The position numbers were made by a program, and so were the translations under genes. Positions 44,286 through 57,672 of a stretch of DNA of 64,000 bases are shown piece by piece. Position 1 is the first letter of the stretch. Each line of letters starts with the position of its first letter. Source of the stretch: Rugalucina vietnamica (taxonomy: Eukaryota > Mollusca > Bivalvia > Lucinida > Lucinidae); the NCBI GenBank assembly GCA_964017185.1, contig OZ024882.1, positions 41,585,431 through 41,649,430 of the forward strand, in the 5' to 3' direction. The notes beneath the pieces are model-generated. The model did no database searches and had not been told where the DNA came from. It saw nothing but the letters and a program-made list of their open reading frames with translations.

Positions 44286-44462
44286 AGGTACAGAATCACT
44301 GCCGTGCTGAAGGTGGCTACTGTATAAACACAATCCCACCCCAGCCCCCAAGACCAAAGAAAAGGCCACAAAGACGACGTATGGGCCGACGGAGAGGCAT
44401 GCCAAGAACTCGGACCAGGAAGGGTAGTAGAATGACCGGTGGTGCACGAGCTGGAGCACGAA
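44286..44462 (+). CDS. Interrupted defensin-like locus 1: exon with C1-C2 and basic linker
   Basis: Acceptor ATTTTACAG, donor GTAAGA. It enters in phase 1 (two bases finish a codon, probably E) and leaves in phase 1. It encodes VQNHCRAEGGYC, a C-x2-E-G-G-x-C motif with six residues between cysteines as in beta-defensins. An extremely basic linker follows (PRPKKRPQRRR, GRRRGMPRTRTRKGSR). The next exon supplies the remaining linker and four cysteines. It matches the cysteine exon of the locus at 55-58 kb in phase and motif. Without the first exon the gene is incomplete in this annotation. It is secreted only if the missing exon supplies a leader. Antimicrobial function is inference from the frame and charge. 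Confidence 0.72.
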
Positions 44463-44804
44463 GTAAGATATCATAATATATACCATTCATGAATTAGAGT
44501 AATGCCAATTTAAAGAAATAAACAATGCCATGAACTTACCAAAGTAAACTCAAGGTTGTATACATGTGTAAATTGCTATACAGTCGTCTGTAAATTGCTG
44601 TACCACACGTCAGTAAATTGCTGTACCATTATGTGTTTCTCGTTTTTTGCTGTACCATACGTCTGTAAATATCACTAGTCTGTAAATTGTTTCATTATAC
44701 ATTAAGTTTATTGTTGTTCTTTACGTCTCTGTAAATTGCAGTAGCAGGCGTCTTTTAATGTCTATACATGTATCCCTACCTATTGAGGGTCTTTAAACGA
44801 TCTC

Positions 44805-45140
44805 TTATGAGGGACATGACACTAAAACCTGGTGGCCCGGTAATGACTCTGAATTCATGTAGGGGCCTCAAAGGAAACTCAATATTAATTGCAGAAGGAA
44901 ACAGTTTTACTGCATATTTTATCATGGACCATAAAACAATAAACAGCAGTACCACATGTATTATCCACCAGAGGCCTATTTACTACTCCCAGCAGAGATG
45001 AGATAATCGCCTAATTATGCCGCTGCTTTGATCGATGAATCATATTGCATCAGAAGGGGTCATAAATCGAATAAACACTTAAGCAGGGGTCATAATTCGA
45101 ATAACAACTTTAGCTCCTTTTGAGACTCTCCCTTAAAATT
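44805..45140 (+). repeat. Family G repeat, copy 2 (in the intron of locus 1)
   Basis: GGGACATGACACTAAAACC, TGTAGGGGCCTCAAAGGAAA and GGGGTCATAAATCGAATAAA match family G. The last word is partly duplicated. Confidence 0.65.
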
Positions 45141-45186
45141 GCTGTACCATACGTCTAAACATTGTTGTACCACGCATCTGTAAATT

Positions 45187-45421
45187 GAGCCTGTGTTTGA
45201 GAAAACCAACAATTTAGGTTCCGACCAGGTCCGACACAAACCGGGCTGTACAGTCACAGAAGATGGTTAGAGGCTGGAAATTTTGGATTTGGAAAGTAAA
45301 TGAATTGTACTGTCCGTGTAGCGAAAACAAAGGCGCTGATCAGCTTCGCAGTTACCGCGAAGCTGATCTGCTCCTTTGTTTTTCGCCTATGCAGATTATT
45401 GTTTTTCCCATGCGGCGGCTC
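45187..45421 (-). repeat. Family B hairpin MITE, copy 9 (abuts a splice acceptor)
   Basis: GAGCCTGTGTTTGAGAAAACC to CATGCGGCGGCTC. Only 21 bp separate it from the terminal exon of locus 1, so the pyrimidine run GTTTTTCCC before the acceptor lies in the element. Confidence 0.87.
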
Positions 45422-45442
45422 AGTTGTCATATCACGTTCCAG

Positions 45443-45807
45443 GACCAGGAGCTCAAGGTGGTGCTGCAGCTGGTCCCCCGCCCTACCAGGCCCCACCAGC
45501 TCAAAACACATGGACTCAACAAGGTCAAGGTCAGCAGGCCTGGAACCAACCTCCTCCTCAACAACAACAACATCAGCAGCAGCAATCAGGTGGCTTTGAC
45601 TTCTTTAGTAACCCAATGTCATGGATGTTCTTCCAAACCAGAAAGAAGAGGCAGGCAGCTCAGCCTGAACCTTTTGAGCCCGGGGAGGCGCCCCAGATAC
45701 AGCCAGGACAGTCCGTTATGAGTTTCTTGAATCAGAACTGTAGGAAAGCAGAGCCGGATTTTGCCTGTATGCAACAAGGTGGTTGGTGTTGCAGACCACC
45801 CCTTTAA
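45443..45807 (+). CDS. Interrupted defensin-like locus 1: terminal exon with C3-C6
   Basis: Acceptor ATCACGTTCCAG, entering in phase 1 and ending in TAA at 45805-45807, with AATAAA at 45829. It encodes a Gly/Pro/Gln-rich linker (PPPQQQQHQQQQ), an aromatic patch (FDFFSNPMSWMFF), a furin-type site RKKR-Q, an acidic Pro-rich stretch, then NCRKAEPDFACMQQGGWCC and RPPL. Cysteine spacing is C-x8-C-x6-C-C. With the preceding exon, the C2-C3 gap is 145 residues. The exon starts 21 bp after a family B element. Other frames over the same bases are longer but have no splice or motif support. Confidence 0.75.
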
Positions 45808-45828
45808 CATTTGATGACGGTTAGGAGG

Positions 45829-45834
45829 AATAAA
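45829..45834 (+). promoter_or_regulatory. Poly(A) signal of interrupted defensin-like locus 1
   Basis: AATAAA 22 bp after the stop codon. Confidence 0.6.
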
Positions 45835-45839
45835 GGTGT

Positions 45840-46590
45840 GTTTTCCCATTGCTTTATAGTAGTAAATCGAATATGAGTGAACAACATGACGTATTAAAAA
45901 ACATTGAAACATTCTGTGACGTTCGCAGATTCATTTGTGATACTTCAACAGACAATACAAGGCATATGTATTTGGAATGTGACACATCTGTTTTAGCATC
46001 GTGAACTAAAGTTGTTTCTGTCACAAATGCCCTTTATTGTCCAAAAATGAAAACCTAGGAGCATTTGAATGAACAATAATCAAGTCTAAGCTCTGACATT
46101 TCAAGTCTTTAAATCTAAAGACAGTCTCTAATACATTTAAATACAGTTTATTATCAGTTCTGAATGTTTGTCAGCTCTTAGAACTGATACTAAGAATATA
46201 ATATCTTGAGGTATTCTATTCTATGATGATAGTAGTTGACTCACGTCACAGAATTACCGTTACAATTATGAATGAAATGAAAGTATTTGACCAATCGGAA
46301 CAGGCGTGTCATTCAGATTTATAACGATAAATCTGTGACGTAAATTTACTACGATCATAATAGAGTTTTAGAACGTGAAATCAAAATATCCCAAAACGTA
46401 ACTAGTTGTTCAATGACATTGGGTTAAAAGGCCACACGCAGGTGACATTTTGGGATAAAATGATAACAAGTTTAAATTATTTAGATTAAACTCATCTCTA
46501 TGATAATTTTATGTCAAATATTTTGACGTTTTAGCAAAATTTGCTGTATTCAGCTTATCATCTTTGCTGTGGTCCCGTTTATTATCGTAA
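45840..46590. other. Intergenic, no supported gene
   Basis: AT-rich sequence after locus 1, no exon-like pattern. Confidence 0.5.
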
Positions 46591-46595
46591 TAATT

Positions 46596-46815
46596 GAGCA
46601 TTTGCACGAGAAAAACAACAATTTACATTTCCGACCAGGTCCGACACAACCTGGCCTGTACCGACATAGAAGCAGGTTAGAAGCTAAGTCGACATAAGTC
46701 GAAGAGGGAATGTAATATCTGTGTAGCAAAAACAAATGCGCCAATCAGCTGTTTTGTTTTCGCATATGCAAAAAAACAAACAAACCAAAAAAACGGTTTT
46801 CACATGATGCATCTC
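46596..46815 (-). repeat. Family B hairpin MITE, copy 10 (degenerate)
   Basis: Recognised by CCGACCAGGTCCGACACAAC, GTGTAGCAAAAACAAATGCG and TTTTGTTTTCGCATATGC. The central hairpin is largely lost. Confidence 0.7.
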
Positions 46816-47308
46816 AATAATTAATGACCAAACCTTACCTTTATGACATTCAACGTTATATATCATAAATACTGGGTCAAAAATAGCTCAGCCGTTAATA
46901 TCTGTCATGACGAACTTCCAGAATAAACATAAATCGTGGTTTTAAGTCACTTTTTCTCATAAAAAGTCAGGTTTTGCGCTGAGCTGGATATTATGCACGC
47001 CACAGAAATGTCGTTCTGTTATAATACGCCTTTGTTGTTGAACTGTTATTGAAAAAGCTATTTTGACAAAATGCGTTAAAAGTGAAACAATCTGCGTTTA
47101 AACCAAAATGTCTAGTTTGGATGTATTCATGAACTTGCAAATGTTTGATAAAGATTGTATGTCTATCATGCCAAATGCAGTAAATCAGAATAAAGTACAG
47201 CAGACTGAAATTTGATTTTCTGTAAATGTTTTACGTGAGGTAAAATTTTGTCTGACTCGTTGATTCTATAAATTTCTTACTTTAAAATGTTTTTTTCTTC
47301 TATTTGCA

Positions 47309-47421
47309 GATGATACATGTAATACTTACTATATAAACGGGACAGAGGTGGCGGAGAAAGGAAATCGAGGTTGGCATGGCCAGGCATCGTCTTTGGATTT
47401 GGAAGAGTGCATTAAATTGGT
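47309..47421 (+). pseudogene. Possible orphan PAN/apple-like exon
   Basis: After TTCTATTTGCAG, an open stretch reads DTCNTYYINGTEVAEKGNRG and then WHGQASSLDLEECIKLV before TAA. The Cys, INGT and SLEEC-KL words resemble the first half of a PAN/apple domain. There is no obvious donor, no partner exon and no second half, so it is either a relic or the end of a gene whose other exons I cannot see. Confidence 0.3.
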
Positions 47422-47424
47422 CTA

Positions 47425-48445
47425 ATTTAAAGACCTGTAGTACAAAAAATAAGAAAGGATCAGTCATGTTGTCAGTGGAAGTCGAATTGCCTCCTCTTTG
47501 TCACGAGTTTTCTAAATTTGTACTGTCTTTATTAAAAATAAGTCAATCCTGTTTTCAGTTTTATCAGATGTCGGAATTTTCTACATTGTAATATGCAATG
47601 TATATCAGAGTATATCGTGTATGCTTACGAAATAAGCCCTCTTCCTACAACATGAATTCATTCATGGTACATGTATCCGAGTTACATTCAAACCGAGATT
47701 TTGTACCACATCTGTCAACATTGTAATATTTTCTGAATCGCAAGAGCCGTCCTCCCTTTAAAAACGTGGTCAGTCACATGGCAACATAAGGATAATCCTT
47801 TTAAATTATACATACTCTTTTAGGAGTCTAATGTTTTAATATTAAAATGCATAATTATAAGGGACATTATAATGTGTGCAAATTAAATGATGGTATCACT
47901 TAACTTCATACTTTAGAACAGAGATCTGACCAGCAAAGATATCTTTAAACTTTTCACTAAACGCATCATTGATAACGTCAAATATACTAGCATGCACCTT
48001 AACCGGTATATCAATTATTTATCTTCAAGGATCACGCCAAGTTTTCGGAATGCTCAATGCCCATTAACAAATTAAGACTGTTTCTTATATTAAGAAATCA
48101 TGTTAAAGCAGATTGATTTCCAAGTGTATGTTCATAAGACACTACATTCCATCGATTTATTTAAAAGGAAACAACGAAGTTAGCAATTTTAAGTAACCGC
48201 ATGTATATATTCGAATCTTAGATTCGGATAGTTCCAAACGTTTAGTGTGTATATTTGTGTACAGTTATTATAAAGTTATTGAATACAGTGTGTAGCATTG
48301 TTGTTTGTTGAATCCAGCAGCAGTAGCATGCTTAACATCCATTCCGCCAGTGGTATTCGATTTAACCTATTAACCAATCATTATCAATTGGATAAGTCCA
48401 CTTCCAGGTTTAGGGATATCAGGTGCGATTTTGATTATTTTATGA
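47425..48445. other. Intergenic, no supported gene
   Basis: AT-rich, no exon-like signal. Confidence 0.5.
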
Positions 48446-48447
48446 AA

Positions 48448-48530
48448 TTTCTCTAAGCAAATCGAATACCTCTGATGGAACGCAGCGTTCTGTTGTGTCA
48501 TATCTAGGGCTATACTGTTTGCATATGTTC
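48448..48530. repeat. Family K hairpin, copy 3 (diverged)
   Basis: CTAAGCAAATCGAATACCTC and CTAGGGCTATACTGTTTGC are diverged forms of the family K arms. Confidence 0.6.
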
Positions 48531-48579
48531 CAGGCTTATATGGCTCAAGGCCACCGATACCAAGATGATTCTTCTGTGA

Positions 48580-48720
48580 TTCGTTTTACACTGTTTTTAC
48601 GATATGTTTTCCAAGTAAAAGCGCCTAATTGTCAATTTATTTTTCCCACCTTGGTTTTTGGAGTGGGGATTTCTTTCTGATTGCGCCTTTTCCTGATCAT
48701 TGCCTATCTGTTCCTTTTCG
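48580..48720 (-). repeat. Family F repeat fragment (reversed)
   Basis: CCCACCTTGGTTTTTGGAGT, then GATTGCGCCTTTTCCTGATC and ATTGCCTA. Confidence 0.7.
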
Positions 48721-49094
48721 CGGTTTTGTATGTCTTCGAATTTCTCTGCTTTACACATCGTGTTTGATTTGAACCCATGGTCTTCTTTCTGTTAATTTTG
48801 CGCTTCAAGAGCAGAATTATAGTTTATGTGATGTCCAGTTCCTGGAAATTGTCTAGGTTGGGATTTTGATTTTAGATGTACATTATCAGTTCATATACTT
48901 TCAAATCTTACTTTGCTTTCACGTCAAGACATTTCCTCTATTTCTTTCCAAAATTGAGGCCATTAACCATCTACGGACGTGCCACGTATGTAGGCTCAAA
49001 CAATCGCACACCATTAAGAATTTTGAAAAGAAATTATTGTATAAAGAATGGTTGCAATTACAATGATTAAATACGTTGTTGTTGTTTGGTAGAT

Positions 49095-49640
49095 AGGGTG
49101 AGAAAGGTATTTGATTTTAAGTAATCAGTGTTAAGGAAATGGCACAATCAGAAAGAAATTCCCACCATAAAAGCCGACGTCGGAAAATCTACATTAACAA
49201 TCACATACTTACAAAAAGAGAACATATCGTAAGCCGAGTGAGCATCTGTTTCCCAATAGAAGGGCACTCAGTCCGAACTTTACTAAATATATAAAATAAA
49301 GTGATAAAAAAAACCCACTTAATTACCAATCAGGTACTTTTACAAAGAGACCATATCGTAAGCCGGGCGAGCAGCTATTTCCCAAGAGACGGTCACTCAG
49401 TTACCCTAACTTAAATAAATACAAGAAAACGTACATAAGGTGCAAACAGCTGAAAACTCAAAAATCGAAACATGAAACAGTAAGAACCACAACAGATGAT
49501 CGCCTTGAAATGATCAGTAATATAAAATACTGGGGCTGAAATCGATATCACATGCGCCTAACCTCACCCTCAGCTTCTGCAGAGCTTCACAACATTTAGT
49601 TCGTTGTTCGGTCCTCGTGTTTTCGTCGCTAGAATTGGCT
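49095..49640 (+). repeat. Family F repeat, tandem copies
   Basis: Two partial copies (GAACATATCGTAAGCCGAG and ACCATATCGTAAGCCGGGC) followed by the family end AGCTTCTGCAGAGCTTCACA and TTGTTCGGTCCTCG. The latter words recur inverted at 49.99-50.05 kb. Confidence 0.72.
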
Positions 49641-50724
49641 AGACAGGGTTCCGCTGGTTGTTTTCTTACACGTCCGTTCTTCAGTGAATCAGTGATGACA
49701 TCTTCGGCAACTCTATAATATACAGTCTTCCTATTTCTTGATTCTACAATTACTGGATTTTAAACATTCGATCGGAGCTTCATGTCTGCTGCTTGGCCCA
49801 CCGGGGTTCAGTTAAATGGTGCTTTTCTTTTGCTCCAGATTTGCAGTAATGTCGGTTGGCTTTCCGGGGATCTCCAGTTACCGGGCAGCTTATTGTATCT
49901 GTGAGTCCTCGTTTCTGATTCATCAAGGTGTTTAACTGTTTATTATAATTTATATGGTAGTCCTTGATAATTTATTGACTCGTTAGATACTCACTACGAG
50001 ACCGAACAACTAACTTAATGTTGTGAAGCTCTGCAGAAGCTAAGGGTATAGGCAAAGACAATCGATATATACGATCTTTGAAAAAAATATAGCCCGGGGG
50101 GTCTTCAATTGTTGATGTTAAAATAAGTCAGAAAAATCTGTGAAGTTTTCCATGCTGAAACTTGGTTTATTTTTTACAAATACATGATGCAAAAGAGTAA
50201 ATAAAAAAATATAGACATGATCTGATTAAAAGACGCTGGTTCACACTAAGGACATTTCCTGATACCCAAAGACCTGTACTCCTGTTTATTGAGGGTCATT
50301 AACTATTCAATGATAAGGGACAGAACACTGAAAAATCTGGTGGCTGACAATGACTACACAGGTAGGGGCCTAAAGGAAATTTCAATATTGAATACTTACA
50401 TTTTTATTGCAATAGCCCTAGATCAAAGTATTTTTCTTGGTGTTATTCATTTCCCAATGAAAAACATTAAGTCACATGATCTAGGGGCCACGCCTATGGG
50501 AGGGGCAAAGTCAAAACCAGCCAGTGACGTTGTTTGTTTACTCTTGTTGGCGTGACGTCGGTCGCGTATCGCCATGACGTTAAGCGCGAAATTTGACGTT
50601 TTGGCTGATCCAAAATTACATTAAGTCGGATTTAATGCCTGTCTAATAAGTTAAAATGAAAATGAGCGATGGTGTAAGCAATTAAAAATCTGATACTTGA
50701 TTGATAATATAAAATGTAAATATA

Positions 50725-50878
50725 AGTATTGAAATTCAGGTTTTAGCTTTCACTGGATGATGAAAAACATAAGTTGTTTTAATGTCTCAGAGAAGCCCTT
50801 CGGGCTTCACAGACATTAAAACAGCCTAATGCTTTTCATCATCCAGTGAACGCTAAAATCTGAATTTCAATCCTTAAC
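50725..50878. repeat. Palindrome inside the family G insertion
   Basis: ATTGAAATTCAGGTTTTAGC, CACTGGATGATGAAAA and GTTTTAATGTCT are mirrored around GAAGCCCTTCGGGCTTC. Confidence 0.85.
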
Positions 50879-50937
50879 TGCAGAGGAAGGCAGTTTTACT
50901 GCACACGTTATCAGGGGCCATGAAATCAATACAAAGA

Positions 50938-51018
50938 ATTATGGACAATTCGGACCTTGGCTAATTCTGCCCTAGTCAATTCGGACCCTAAAAAATTCGG
51001 CCCTAGTCAATTCGGACC
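50938..51018. repeat. Short tandem repeat CTAGTCAATTCGGACC
   Basis: Four to five imperfect units of about 16-18 bp with AATTCGGACC or AATTCGGCCC cores inside family G copy 3. Confidence 0.7.
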
Positions 51019-51179
51019 TCGACCACAGTGGTATCACAGGTATTACCTTTTAGGGGCCTCTTTATTACTTATGACGCGCCTTTGATCTCTAAATCATATT
51101 GCACCATTAAGTGTCATTAACCGAATAAATAATGGCACCACTTTAGCTCCCTCAAATTTTACCTCTTTAACTTAACGTT

Positions 51180-53630
51180 CTGTCGGTTTCACGACTGGTG
51201 TTTCTCTCTAGTTTCACGACTGGTGTGTCGTGTACTTTTCATAGCCGCCGATCCGATGGTCAGTCAATATATCATTTATACGTATTTCTTTGAAGTTGAC
51301 CTGCAACAAAATTCACGCCTTGTTGACCTTAGACATAAGACTGGAATGAAATGACCACAAATGGCTATAATTCATTATCAGTTTCATTACGTGAACGTCT
51401 CCATACGAACGTTACACTTTGTAGCGTCGTTGCCATAATAAGCACAATGATACTGTAGTGCACAGTAGATAGGGGAAGACCTATGCTTGTTTTAACAGAG
51501 GAACTTAATTATTTTGGAGTTTAAAACTATAAAACTGTCCCACAATTACACGTTTTACTCTGATAGTCGTGCACTGTGGTAGCATGATTTAGTTTTGAAC
51601 ATATATTTGTGGCAAATTAGTTGTACCCGCACGTAGAAGTTCACGTTATGCACATACTGTAAGGAAACGATGGGCCCTAGCGCCCATTAATAAATAATTC
51701 ATATTAATTCCCTTGCGGTTTTAAAAAAAAGTATAAAAAGCCGAAACACCTTCGCTGCTGTAAAGTACATTCGCAGGCGTCCAACGCACGTAAGTTACAA
51801 GTTACAGCATTCTAAAATATTCAAAATAAAGGAATTTCATAATGAATATTCTATAGTATTTTGGAAAAAAAAATTGTGGGATATCTCTTAGTATTAATTC
51901 ACCGCGATAACTGTATGGCAGAAGTCAATGTAAAATTCTTGTTACTTACCAGGGTTGGTAGGTCGAGTTTTTGGCGATTTTCTCAAATAATTAAATAATT
52001 GTTTTAGAAGAAGGGCAGTCTGACTCTATTATGAAAAATGTATGTTTCATTTGAAACATTTGCTAATTCCAAATAACATACACTTTAATTAATGTAACAT
52101 ACGATTTCAAACGTTACAGTACAGCAGATGCAGATTTCGTCAAAGTATTAAAATGCAGCTGCATCAAACGTCTTTATGCAAACAGAATAGCGTTTTGCGG
52201 CGTCCCATCTGGGGCTATACTGTTTGCCTTTGCCCCACAAAAGGAACATCAGGCTTAAATGAGTAAAGTTAACATGTAATTGAAGAGATTTATTATCTGA
52301 GTCAGCCATATTGCAGTTATTATCAAAATGCATTTTACACTGCCCTGAAATGATTGTCAGAATAATTGTCTATTATTTTACTGGCGTTAAGTTCACACTT
52401 CCACGAATGATGATTTTATGGGAGATGTGAATTAACCTTTGTATGAATGCAAACTATCAGCATGCTTATTGGCATACTGGAAATAAGCTTTATGTTCCAT
52501 AGTATCATAGTTTAACTAAAACATTAGTTGAGACGGTACAAAAGTTGAAGTTGAAGTCTAAAATTCAGAGGAACCAAAGCAAAGAAGCCACTTATCTAGT
52601 TTCAAGGGTAGTAGTTCACTCGCAGTACGGAGGACTTAATGTTCTGACGGAAGACGCTAGAAAACATGCCTGGGATTGATTGATTTAACTAAAACCCCTG
52701 GTAGGATACTTGCAATAAGCAGGAACCCAATTTAGCTGTTAAAAGCAAAAGAAAAAAAAAAGACAAAGATGACACCATCGAAGATGTACATGTAAGATAA
52801 TCTACTCAGCTTAATGGACAGCGGTGTGTCAGATGTACAGTGTTGCTCACAACATAGATTGCCACTGTAGAGAACAATTTGAGCGATTCGGTGTACCGAT
52901 AGCTACATTGAATGGGTCTCTTGCAGATGCTGATTAGACCTTTATAAAAGTGACGTCTGTCACAATTAGTAGTGAACGCAAAGTGAAGAGACAAAGAAAT
53001 TCCAAGGTGTATTGAAAACGATTTATTGTTGAAAACAAATGTTAACACTACACTTCTAAGTCCAGATGAAAATAAGATTTAAATGTACCAGAATTCTGAC
53101 AATTGAATTTAAAGTTCCAATCAAAACACCAGACGGAGAAGGAGAGACACTACTAGACACAAAATACAACAAAACACATGAAGAGGAAGGTGACCATCAT
53201 TTTTTCCAATAACTTAAGGTACATGTAGCCATGTGGTGAGGCTTTTAGCAAAATAATAATACACAAAAGAAAAAAAAAGCACAAATAAATCACAGCAGAA
53301 TTGCATTGGAGTGGTTATCTGTGATGAATACTTAGCTTGAATGGTTAGTGGCTCGTAGCAACCTTTGCTTATAAAGGAAATATAATATGGATTCAAGAAA
53401 AAGGAAAATAACAAGACAACAACAACAACAGAAACACCAAGAAGGAATTAAAATCGGGACCTGCACAAGACGTGTGCCGAACCCAACAAAGCGTTCTACA
53501 TAAGCCCTGGAACAGCATGGCCATAGCTCATTTCCATCCAGATCCATGGCAGAAGTGCGGCATTTTCATGGTGGCATATATGTATGTGTTGACAATGATT
53601 GACATCTCTGTAGTTCTATTCTTTACAGAA
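51180..53630. other. Intergenic, no supported gene apart from family K copy 4
   Basis: Short frames on both strands without splice, leader or motif support. Confidence 0.45.
52178..52262. repeat. Family K hairpin, copy 4
   Basis: TGCAAACAGAATAGCG and CATCTGGGGCTATACTGTTT, with the extended end CATCAGGCTTAAATGAGT mirrored relative to copy 2. Confidence 0.68.
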
Positions 53631-53631
53631 A

Positions 53632-54305
53632 AAGGTACAAGTAGGCAAAGATCAGGAAAAGGCGCAATCAGAAAAAGATTCCCACTCCAAAAACCGAGGT
53701 GGGAAAAAACCAAACTAACAATCAGGTACTTATACCATGAAACATATCGTAAGCCGAATGAGCAGCTATTTTCCCAATAGGTGGCCACTCAGTTACCTTA
53801 ACTTAACCAAAAATATGAAAACATACATAAGGCGCCAACAGCACAAAAAAATTTTTATACACCAAAACATAAAACAAAAAGAACCACCACAGAAGTATCG
53901 ACTTGGAACGATCAGTAACACAAAGTTACTGGCGGGCTTAAACCGATTTTACATGGCCATAACCTCACCCTCAGCTTCCGCAGTGGTTCAGTGATATACA
54001 AAAAATAAGAAAAATCGTATTAAGAAAATACTAAACATAGATACCAACGATTAACATGAATAACGGAAAGCAGGGTGAGCAGCTATTGAAGGTATTAGGT
54101 GGTCACAGTGCTAGCTTGGACAGAACAAGTAAAATGCAGAGGGCTAAGTGAACAGCCAATTTATAATCGGGTGGCCACAAAGCCTTATCTGAGAAAAAAT
54201 TCTGGATCGTTTTCTAAAGTTCAAGGAAGGCAGTTATCAGGAATACACAAGTGGAAAAGAACCAAAAATTCAAATAGGTCCTGATACAAAGAGAACATAC
54301 CTAAG
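53632..54305 (+). repeat. Family F repeat, full copy plus diverged second copy
   Basis: GTAGGCAAAGATCAGGAAAA, CACTCCAAAAACCGAGGTGG, ATATCGTAAGCCGAATGAGC, then TAACCTCACCCTCAGCTTCC. A diverged copy follows at 54055-54305. Reading frames on both strands here are repeat artefacts. Confidence 0.75.
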
Positions 54306-55300
54306 CCCAGTGACAAGCCATATCCCAAATTTAAACGGGTGGCGACTCAAATATTAACTAAATATCTGAATACCCACATAAAAACGCAAAACGGCATTAT
54401 ATATTAACGTTTGAATCAGCGGCTAAATAAAATGAAAGTGTTAATTTAGATCCGTTATTGTTGTTGGCTGAGACTGGCCTAGATACACATTTTATAATAC
54501 ATTGACTGTAGCATTAATTGATTCGTGACTATCAACATATTTCTGACAACTTGTCAAATACAAGACACATACGTCTATTTTTTGTTGAGAGAAATATTTT
54601 TTGTTGTTTCTAAATTCGGCTATCATACACAACAAAACAAATGAATAATATTGATAATCATGTATCATGCTGTGTTAACCCATACTCAGAAATACAATGT
54701 ATAATTTCAAATCATACTCAAACATTTGGAAATGTTCCACAAATGGGCGTTCAGCAAATACTTTACATAGAATCACAGTTTTGGATGATATTCATCTGAA
54801 TGGTATTATTTCGCGAGACATGCGTGCCCAAAATGTGTTGTCCAAAATGTGTTGTCCACATGACAAACACTCATATAGGCTCCGATGCTGTGCAAACTAT
54901 AGAGCGGCGATAGATCAATTCCTAAACAGGTAGATTTTGTGAAGCTATAATTTGAAAATACTGGACGATGCATAGTTAGATTCGTTATAAATAATGTCCA
55001 ACAGTACACCTAAGTCTGTGATGCCTTGTTGTCCTTGTTTTAGGTATTGCGTGAAACGGGATATTCATCCATTTTGATTTTGGATATGAACCCTTTATCT
55101 GTACCTGTTGTGGGACACGGGATATTCAGGAATTTGGACATGTGATGAAATTTATTTTGGAAAAAGTTTATCCGTTCGTTCAACAGAGCCTTTTAGTTTT
55201 ATTTAATCAAATATCAAAGTTTCTACTGTATATACGAGTACCATGCATTTTCTTACTATGAGTATCATGTGAGAATGGTTCATCATAAATATCAATTTAT
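54306..55300. other. Region upstream of interrupted-defensin locus 2
   Basis: No supported gene. The stretch TTTATTTTAG at about 55296-55305 is acceptor-like, so the 5' UTR of locus 2 may be spliced. Confidence 0.4.
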
Positions 55301-55343
55301 TTTAGCATTGTGAGTTGGTACAGTGCTGCTGTTGAGGGTCACC

Positions 55344-55461
55344 ATGCAGTTGGTGGTAGCAGCTCTAGGATGCCTCCTCCTGGCACATTGCGTCGGTGCC
55401 GGAATTTTCGGATGGGGCTGGGATTTCGGTAACTACAGAGATGCCAGGTCTAACTACAATG
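55344..55461 (+). CDS. Locus 2 exon 1: signal peptide and Trp-rich N-terminus
   Basis: ATG in ACCATGC context. 39 codons plus one base, donor GTATGC, phase 1. Hydrophobic leader, then AGIFGWGWDFGNYRDARSNY. A TTTA repeat starts 14 bp after the exon. Confidence 0.8.
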
Positions 55462-57671
55462 GTATGCAGAAATGATTTTATTTATTTATTTATTTATTTA
55501 TTTATTCCGTTTTATTTTAGCTCCTATTCATCATTGTCGAAGTGCAGCCACCGCTTCGTGAGTACATATGCAGTACCGGCGTTGGTAAGCACACAAGTCC
55601 CTGCGCAATCTACCAATTATAAAGCCAACGCGTGTCCCATCAGAATTGCAATCATGTATTAATGGATTTTAAGATGAAAAACAAAGAAATGTAGATATGA
55701 TAAGGTAAAGAGTATATAAAGGCATAAGCGAAAATTTCTCGACGTAGACTTTTGATTGCGAAGAATATTTTTTGTTTGCATGAATTGTTACTCTACGTCT
55801 AAGACAACAACCATGGTCATGTTGGGACGTTATCTGTTGAAAGGGACGTCAATTTGCAAACAAACTTTTGCAATTAAACGGAATTCTACAAGTCTGCATC
55901 TAGGGATTTTCGTTATGTATGACTCTCTCCTCATTTAAATAACACAACATATATGTATACTGTTACATGTACATGCATTTCAGGTTATCTTTCAGAAATA
56001 GAAAGTCCAAGAATAATTGAATCGCACCTTCAACAGAACACATATCCCATATCATACTGTCCCAATCAGCCGCTATGAATTCAAAGACGGCGACATTAAT
56101 ATACGCGTTTACAGCCAACTTCATGCTGTTAACAGTTTTCTTATCTTCCAATTTTAGAAATGATGACACATTGTGAGCGGGAGGGTGGCTCGTGCATTGA
56201 TGTTGATTTCAACACGGGCTATATTGGCGGTGGTGCCACCACCGGCGGTGGAGGGGGTGGTGGAGCCGAAGAACAGGAGGGTGCCCCGAAAACTACTACC
56301 GCAGCCCCAGCAACCAATGCACCTGCTCCAAGAAACTTGAAACGCCGCCCGTTACTCGCCAGACGCTCGGCCATCCGTCGCCCCGCGGGACGTCCCCGAA
56401 GACGAAGACAAGTGGGCGGTTTTAGGGCACTCGACTACTTCGCAATTAAACGGAATTCTATACGTCTGCATCTAGGGATTTTCGTTATGTATGACTCTCT
56501 CCTCAGTTAAATAACACAACATATATGTATACTGTTACATGTACATGCATTTCAGGTTATCTTTCAGAAATAGAAAGTCCAAGAATAATTGAATCGCACC
56601 TTCAACAGAACACATATCCCATATCATACTGTCCCAATCAGCCGCTATGAATTCAAAGACGGCGACATTAATATACGCGTTTACAGCCAACTTCATGCTG
56701 TTAACAGTTTTCTTATCTTCCAAATTTAGAAATGATGACACATTGTGAGCGGGAGGGTGGCTCGTGCATTGATGTTGATTTCAACACGGGCTATATTGGC
56801 GGTGGTGCCACCACCGGCGGTGGAGGGGGTGGTGGAGCCGAAGCCGAAGAACAGGAGGGTGCCCCGAAAACTACTACCGCAGCCCCAGCAACCAATGCAC
56901 CTGCTCCAAGAAACTTGAAACGCCGCCCGTTACTCGCCAGACGCTCGGCCATCCGTCGCCCCGCGGGACGTCCCCGAAGACGAAGACAAGTGGGCGGTTT
57001 TAGGGCACTCGACTACTTCGCAATTAAACGGAATTCTATAAGTCTGCATCTAGGGATTTTCGTTATGTATGACTCTCTCCTCAGTTAAATAACACAACAT
57101 ATATGTATACTGTTACATGTACATGCATTTCAGGTTATCTTTCAGAAATAGAAAGTCCAAGAATAATTGAATCGCACCTTCAACAGAACACATATCCCAT
57201 ATCATACTGTCCCAATCAGCCGCTATGAATTCAAAGACGGTGACATTAATATACGCGTTTACAGCCATTTTTACTTCATGCTGTTAACAGTTTTCTTATC
57301 TTCCAAATTTAGAAATGATGACACATTGTGAGCGGGAGGGTGGCTCGTGCATTGATGTTGATTTCAACACGGGCTATATTGGCGGTGGTGCCACCACCAG
57401 CGGTGGAGGGGGTGGTGGAGCCGAAGCCGAAGAACAAGAGGGTGCCCCGAAAACTACTACCGCAGCCCCAGCAACCAATGCACTGGCTCCAAGAAACTTG
57501 AAACGCCGCCCGAAACTCGCCAGTCGCTCGGCCATCCGTCGCCCCGCGGGACGTCCCCGAAGACGAAGACAAGTGGGCGGTTTTGGGGCACTCGACTACT
57601 TGGCTAGAGAATGCTGGAACTGGGAATTTGACTTCAGTTGCCATGGAAAGGGAAACATTTGCTGTTACTAG
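55344..57671 (+). CDS. Interrupted defensin-like locus 2 (secreted cationic six-Cys protein)
   Basis: Exon 1 joined to the third copy of exon 2 gives 158 aa. It has a leader (MQLVVAALGCLLLAHCVG, cut probably after VGA or CVG), a Trp/Gly N-terminus (GIFGWGWDF), C1-x6-C2 with C-x2-E-G-G-x-C, and an 87-residue Gly-, Thr/Ala- and Arg-rich linker. A furin-type site RRRR-QVGG follows, then C3-x8-C4-x6-C5C6 ending in CCY. The spacing equals locus 1 apart from linker length, and C3-x3-E-x-D-F-S/A-C4 is also shared. A beta-defensin fold would pair C1-C5, C2-C4 and C3-C6 and tolerate the C2-C3 loop. The fold and antimicrobial role are inference. A different cystine fold or a matrix protein cannot be excluded. 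Confidence 0.72.
55476..55506. repeat. TTTA microsatellite
   Basis: About seven TTTA units just inside intron 1 of locus 2. Confidence 0.85.
56158..56510 (+). pseudogene. Locus 2 exon 2, copy 1 (lacks C3-C6)
   Basis: Acceptor CAATTTTAG intact. It encodes THCEREGGSC, the Gly-rich linker and RRRRQVGGFRALDYFA. It then runs into what was intron sequence (IKRNSIRLHLGIF) and stops after 116 codons from the first in-frame ATG. There is no good donor, so if used it would give a truncated two-cysteine protein. Could also be an alternative 3' exon. Confidence 0.75.
56730..57088 (+). pseudogene. Locus 2 exon 2, copy 2 (lacks C3-C6)
   Basis: As copy 1, but with the two-residue AE insertion (GAEAEEQEG) shared with copy 3, and with the same out-of-exon tail and stop. 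The acceptor CAAATTTAG is intact. Confidence 0.75.
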
Positions 57672-57672
57672 G
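57313..57672 (+). CDS. Locus 2 exon 2, copy 3 (complete)
   Basis: Acceptor CAAATTTAG, phase 1, stop TAG at 57669-57671, donor GTACGT right after the stop. This is the only copy that continues from ALDYLA into ECWNWEFDFSCHGKGNICCY. It differs from copy 2 at about eight bases, nearly all changing the amino acid. A minus-strand frame across it is a shadow. Confidence 0.82.

Follow-up and report, generated by a model that had tools for sequence, protein, structure and literature searches.

Two neighbouring predicted genes of a lucinid bivalve share a six-cysteine frame split by a long basic linker and may be divergent defensins

Can a defensin-like frame of six cysteines be opened between its second and third cysteine to take in a linker of 87 or even 145 residues, and is this what two neighbouring loci of a bivalve encode? 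The question is raised by a stretch of 64,000 nucleotides from Rugalucina vietnamica (Lucinidae; assembly GCA_964017185.1, contig OZ024882.1; C14:41585431-41649430), called the window below, in which two loci, gene 1 and gene 2, both encode C-x6-C ... C-x8-C-x6-C-C (cysteines C1 to C6). A first-pass annotation had placed two half-motifs, one around C1-C2 and one around C3-C4, in both loci on the same cysteine plan, with C2-C3 linkers of 145 residues (gene 1) and 87 residues (gene 2), and we find all of these in place. The splicing of both genes is predicted from sequence throughout, while motifs, open frames, splice-site phases, cleavage motifs, charges and the paralogy of the two frames were established directly. 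The two genes are made up as follows, in window coordinates.

44286-45807, forward strand: gene 1, exon A plus exon B, carrying both half-motifs.
44286..44462, forward strand: gene 1 exon A, with C1-C2 (CRAEGGYC, 44300-44323) and then an Arg/Pro-rich first part of the linker.
44463..45442, forward strand: gene 1 intron, lying within the linker and containing dispersed repeats (matches in window and genome).
45443..45807, forward strand: gene 1 exon B, an open frame with the Gly/Gln/Pro-rich remainder of the linker, C3-C6 (CRKAEPDFACMQQGGWCC, 45739-45792) and the stop.
55344-57671, forward strand: gene 2, exon 1 plus exon 2, with a predicted precursor of 158 residues.
55344..55461, forward strand: gene 2 exon 1, with the signal-peptide-like MQLVVAALGCLLLAHCVGA and GIFGWGWDFGNYRDARSNYN and a phase-1 donor, ATG|GTATGC.
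57313..57671, forward strand: gene 2 exon 2, with C1-C2 (CEREGGSC, 57327-57350), the 87-residue linker, C3-C6 (CWNWEFDFSCHGKGNICC, 57612-57665), a Tyr and the stop.

The resemblance between the two loci goes beyond chance. In a simulation of 150 windows of 64 kb by a first-order Markov model, C-x8-C-x6-CC appeared 0.087 times per window and never twice in one, the ten-residue C-x3-E-x-DF-x-C appeared 0.007 times per window, and neither C-x2-EGG-x-C nor C-x3-E-x-DF-x-C-x6-CC appeared at all. When genes 1 and 2 are aligned on their cysteines, 11 of the 38 columns outside the shared cysteines agree; the BLOSUM62 score of this alignment was reached by none of 200,000 shuffles, and its identity by two of the 200,000. 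The linkers align no better than shuffled sequences (p 0.33, 2,000 shuffles). Since the similarity exceeds that of shuffles in the frame and not in the linkers, genes 1 and 2 are paralogous predicted genes that kept the frame, with the similarity of their linkers either lost or never there. To say that the linkers differ completely, as the first-pass annotation did, is therefore fair, though both contain an Arg-rich tract. These tracts were paired by tblastn (E 0.018), yet the best alignment stays within the range of shuffles, and we rejected linker homology. Selection for the cystine frame, also proposed there, fits two diverged paralogues that retain the frame and not the linker, but two sequences cannot prove it. 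An open-frame CLGWDFDFRC at 48850-48879 matches CWNWEFDFSC of gene 2 at 60% without the CC ending, probably by chance.

Do these two genes have relatives elsewhere? Across the genome (1.09 Gb in 47 contigs), four protein queries and DNA searches returned only the two genes, truncated copies described below and dispersed repeats of the gene 1 intron; distant members may be missed, because only a few candidates (here 1 to 4) receive a score in such protein searches. Two additional weak protein matches, L034 (with one stop) and L040, did not look related on reading. A motif scan of 20 loci, which together cover some 100 kb to either side, turned up six weak matches, not one of which has both halves, and searches of viral contigs and genome contigs revealed no relative, as expected for animal genes. 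The big defensin profile PF14862 has three matches across the genome, none over its cut-off. The beta-defensin profile PF00711 has 14, one of them listed over the cut-off (21.3 bits with its neighbours, on contig C17), and we judged this one not to be a defensin, as it is a short frame without the CC ending. That no described family has this layout, another claim of the first-pass annotation, is uncontradicted by Pfam, NCBIfam, PDB and literature searches. A defensin with an insert of this kind was not seen described in the literature covered; the novelty of the layout is provisional, because most subscription papers and the animal protein databases lay outside these searches.

To which lineage could such a frame belong? 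The reading that we favour, tentatively and with belief and doubt close to balance, is that the genes are a divergent beta/big-defensin (trans-defensin) pair in which the C2-C3 loop would have turned into a long disordered basic insert. This grading covers lineage and layout; a further step, cleavage into two chains, is rated less likely and is taken up below. Vertebrate beta-defensins (PF00711) share with these genes the C-x6-C spacing, the adjacent last cysteines after about six residues, a G before C2, an E four residues after C3 and a phase-1 intron before the cysteine region. In big and beta-defensin genes alike, a phase-1 intron marks the 5' end of the cysteine-coding region (PMC7203481). 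The phase-1 split codon is the fifth ahead of C1 in both genes (for gene 1 at the acceptor only), and the predicted splice sites conform to this gene plan; exon A of gene 1 is in phase 1 at both boundaries (acceptor TTTTACAG|AG, donor GAA|GTAAGA). In one comparison of beta-defensins, four positions between the cysteines are more than 80% conserved: a G in C1-C2, an R in C2-C3, and both an E and a G in C3-C4 (PMC8116387); genes 1 and 2 have the first G and the E and lack the last G, and the position of the R lies in the replaced loop. Seven non-cysteine frame residues are common to both genes, four of which equal those of beta-defensin 3 and two those of beta-defensin 106, a count that is an illustration more than a test because these chains were picked by similarity.

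Profile searches point in the same direction once the loop is shortened. With the C2-C3 loop cut by hand to three residues, both genes match Defensin_beta (PF00711) below its curated cut-off of 21 bits, gene 1 at E 0.008 (16.6 bits) and gene 2 at E 0.27 (11.7 bits). The shortened gene 1 also matches EF-Ts_N (E 0.15) and Defensin_big (PF14862) at E 6.4, the best match to the big defensins. A loop of five residues was tried first and one of three residues second, and the scanned shuffles share the three-residue frame. Of 100 cysteine-fixed shuffles made, 75 were scanned (all 50 for gene 1 and the first 25 for gene 2), and Defensin_beta was found for 1/50 and 0/25, respectively. Three members of the set of 52 scanned with the gene 1 shuffles match Defensin_beta, two of them being the real sequences. 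Eight shuffles with a five-residue loop gave no match.

Several results weigh against a defensin lineage. No Pfam or NCBIfam family reaches its cut-off with the natural sequences, whose only listed matches, New_glue (E 0.16) and Glycoprotein (E 1.4), fall in low-complexity parts; with a five-residue loop neither gene gives a match, nor does the gene 2 precursor with signal, whether natural or with the short loop. One shuffle reached Diedel at E 0.0048 and another HNH_3 at E 0.0095, so that an E near 0.01 alone is unremarkable; the weight rests on both real sequences pointing at one family and not on the E-value. In PDB, gene 1 with the shortened loop found beta-defensins 106 (E 0.09) and 3 (E 0.44), gene 2 found antibody chains, and a joint profile of both genes found nothing. 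Among four shuffles searched in PDB, two found none, one found NFAP and a collagen, and one found P9R (E 0.05), which we take to be a beta-defensin derivative, together with other chains; because of these shuffles the gene 1 matches are not counted as evidence. An AlphaFold2 model built from five rows from the window has a mean pLDDT of 56.7, the linker being largely under 50 and the ends at 72-78 with short strands and a helix ahead of C3, and Foldseek against PDB returned six matches at E 7.9-9.6, none meaningful. Within the frame, the conserved beta-defensin G two residues before C4 is F here, and C3 and C4 are separated by 8 residues, not 9. The C2-C3 loop of beta-defensins 106 and 3 has 3-4 residues, as against 87 and 145 here. 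The cationic cysteine-rich domain expected of beta- and big defensins is seen in neither gene: the cysteine module is neutral to acidic (K+R minus D+E is 0 in gene 1 and -4 in gene 2). The beta-defensin likeness seen by the first-pass annotation is supported in part, by the phase-1 intron, the G, the E and the weak short-loop Defensin_beta matches; the charge of the cysteine module is unlike that of a typical defensin.

These results could also be explained by a family of secreted cysteine-rich proteins that is specific to the lineage, has no relation to defensins and came to its similar spacing convergently; mucus, adhesive and matrix proteins or other cysteine-rich peptides would be examples. 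In such a case the low-complexity linker would do the work, with the cysteine ends acting as a clamp. Such a family would account for the missing match above cut-off, the missing fold match, the neutral-to-acidic module next to a low-complexity linker, and the weak matches of shuffled frames, P9R included. It leaves the phase-1 intron just ahead of C1, the conserved G and E positions and the Defensin_beta matches of the short-loop forms of both genes, as against 1/75 shuffles, to coincidence, and we consider it unlikely, though a serious competitor.

Are the two genes intact? The gene structures add two points against the favoured reading. First, a predicted splice is all that connects the two frame halves of gene 1, and simple scans of the upstream 44 kb for a signal plus a donor did not reveal the first coding exon of this gene. 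In 1-44285 seven possible starts come with a phase-1 donor, and all were rejected: those at 171, 180 and 38399 fall within repeats, and those at 1326, 27600, 27615 and 33823 are by eye unlike a cleavable signal. Second, gene 2 carries a tandem array in which two truncated copies of its main exon intervene between exons 1 and 2.

55867..57601, forward strand: tandem array; its three units are each about 575-585 bases long and 96-98% alike.
56158..56511, forward strand: copy 1 of the gene 2 main exon, in which C1-C2 and the linker are followed by unrelated codons up to a stop and C3-C6 are missing.
56730..57088, forward strand: copy 2, likewise without C3-C6.
57313..57671, forward strand: copy 3, which is exon 2 itself.

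The array is young. Of the three exon copies with C1-C2 and a linker, only the last has C3-C6, and copies 1 and 2 retain the acceptor, C1-C2, the linker and RRRRQ. To judge from these sites, exon 1 spliced to the nearest copy could yield a protein whose frame is reduced to C1 and C2. A comparison of 95 codons between copies 2 and 3 shows five replacements, each of them within the linker, against a single silent change; this gives no sign of linker constraint, in counts too small to judge selection. For exon 1 itself, a protein search of the genome returned a single copy. The exon joins assumed by the first-pass annotation are needed for gene 1, whose halves meet only through the predicted splice; the C2-C3 linker of gene 2 needs no splice, because all six cysteines lie in one exon. 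Neither the array nor the cleavage sites described below had been noticed there.

Gene 1 might then lack a first exon, and the nearest main exon of gene 2 is a truncated copy; both could be non-working relics or decaying copies in a repeat-rich stretch. The unfound signal exon, the copies without C3-C6 placed before the full one, the excess of replacements over silent changes between copies 2 and 3 (too few to test) and repeats that extend almost to the exon B acceptor are in line with decay. We nevertheless hold it improbable: the cysteine frame and common residues persist in two paralogues whose linkers do not align, the frames are open to natural stops with fitting splice sites and a downstream AATAAA in both genes (45829 and 57824), and a distant first exon can escape simple exon scans.

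The dispersed repeats of the gene 1 intron lie at 44750-45077 and 45198-45425, with dozens of genome-wide copies among the matches listed, and their matches stop 7-20 bases short of the predicted exon B acceptor. An alternative phase-1 acceptor for this exon lies inside a repeat at 45394, and its pyrimidine tract is richer than that of the predicted acceptor; if used, it adds residues to gene 1, including one cysteine.

If the genes do belong to the beta/big-defensin lineage, what could so long a linker do? A furin-type motif, R-x-[KR]-R|Q, lies upstream of C3 in the linkers of both genes.

45640..45654, forward strand: furin-type site RKKRQ in the gene 1 linker.
57558..57572, forward strand: furin-type site RRRRQ in the gene 2 linker, found also in copies 1 and 2 (56397-56411 and 56975-56989).

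Big defensins (PF14862) likewise have a phase-1 intron where the six-cysteine region begins, a secreted precursor and a basic cleavage site. The prodomain of an oyster big defensin ends in R-N-K-R, called a furin-type target, and its mature N-terminal Gln was assumed to be cyclised to fit the measured mass (PMC3182236); this R-N-K-R before Gln resembles the R-x-[KR]-R|Q of both linkers. In big defensins, however, the basic site precedes the mature peptide, whereas here it lies between C2 and C3, inside the frame, which also sets these genes apart from beta-defensins. Beta-defensins are held to descend from big defensins, whose described departures include loss of the N-terminal domain, with shorter non-canonical big defensins known from Dreissena and Ruditapes (PMC7203481).

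The charges suggest how the parts might work together. The linker carries a net charge (K+R minus D+E) of +18 in gene 1 and +7 in gene 2, and the C3-C6 chain that a cut would release has a predicted pI of 4.6-4.8. We consider, as a distinctly doubtful elaboration of the defensin reading, a split defensin in which the loop would have become a cleavable, disordered cationic arm, two of the three disulfides would be interchain, and the core would serve as a neutral-to-acidic anchor. Expression, fold, pairing, cleavage and a role in defence are inferred. In the favoured reading, an upstream exon (seen in gene 2 only) would supply the signal peptide, and a phase-1 intron would lead into the six-cysteine region, where the short C2-C3 loop would have been swapped for a long, disordered stretch that includes an Arg-rich tract. 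On either side of this stretch, the flanks would adopt a defensin fold with the bonds C1-C5, C2-C4 and C3-C6, the pairing of beta-defensins (PMC7203481). A proprotein convertase would then cut R-x-[KR]-R|Q before C3, leaving two chains joined by C1-C5 and C2-C4: the first with C1, C2 and the cationic tail, the second acidic, starting with Gln and holding C3-C6. It would be the cationic tail, and not the cysteine core, that binds negatively charged surfaces such as bacterial membranes.

In a marine invertebrate, single precursors are known to yield two-chain peptides. The centrocins of sea urchins consist of two disulfide-linked chains from one precursor, with the activity in the cationic chain, and one centrocin light chain is apparently blocked by pyroglutamate (PMC4805251). 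The likeness is in working only; centrocins have one interchain disulfide, their interchain is removed, and they lack a six-cysteine frame.

A signal-like exon, a basic cleavage site and cysteines flanking a variable linker would also suit a hormone-like precursor of two chains, on the model of insulin or relaxin, whose connecting peptide would be the linker. The order and spacing of the cysteines, however, are unlike those of insulin, no Pfam family is matched, and only one clear R-x-[KR]-R site, before C3, was noted in each linker, so that the linker would stay on the first chain. We regard such a precursor as very improbable.

Should the split-defensin reading be right, 87-145 residues and a cutting site within the tightest loop of the frame would show how far this scaffold can be opened, and would represent a natural two-chain design with the charge shifted off the core. 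The two half-motifs and the phase-1 intron also provide a search template for relatives whose split motif escapes ordinary profiles.

At the other end of the gene 2 precursor, only about 20 residues separate the signal from the intron, and a hydrophobic N-terminal domain of the big defensin kind is not seen there. The predicted mature N-terminus (55404-55460), upstream of the phase-1 intron, is rich in Gly and aromatic residues and begins GIFGWGWDFG.

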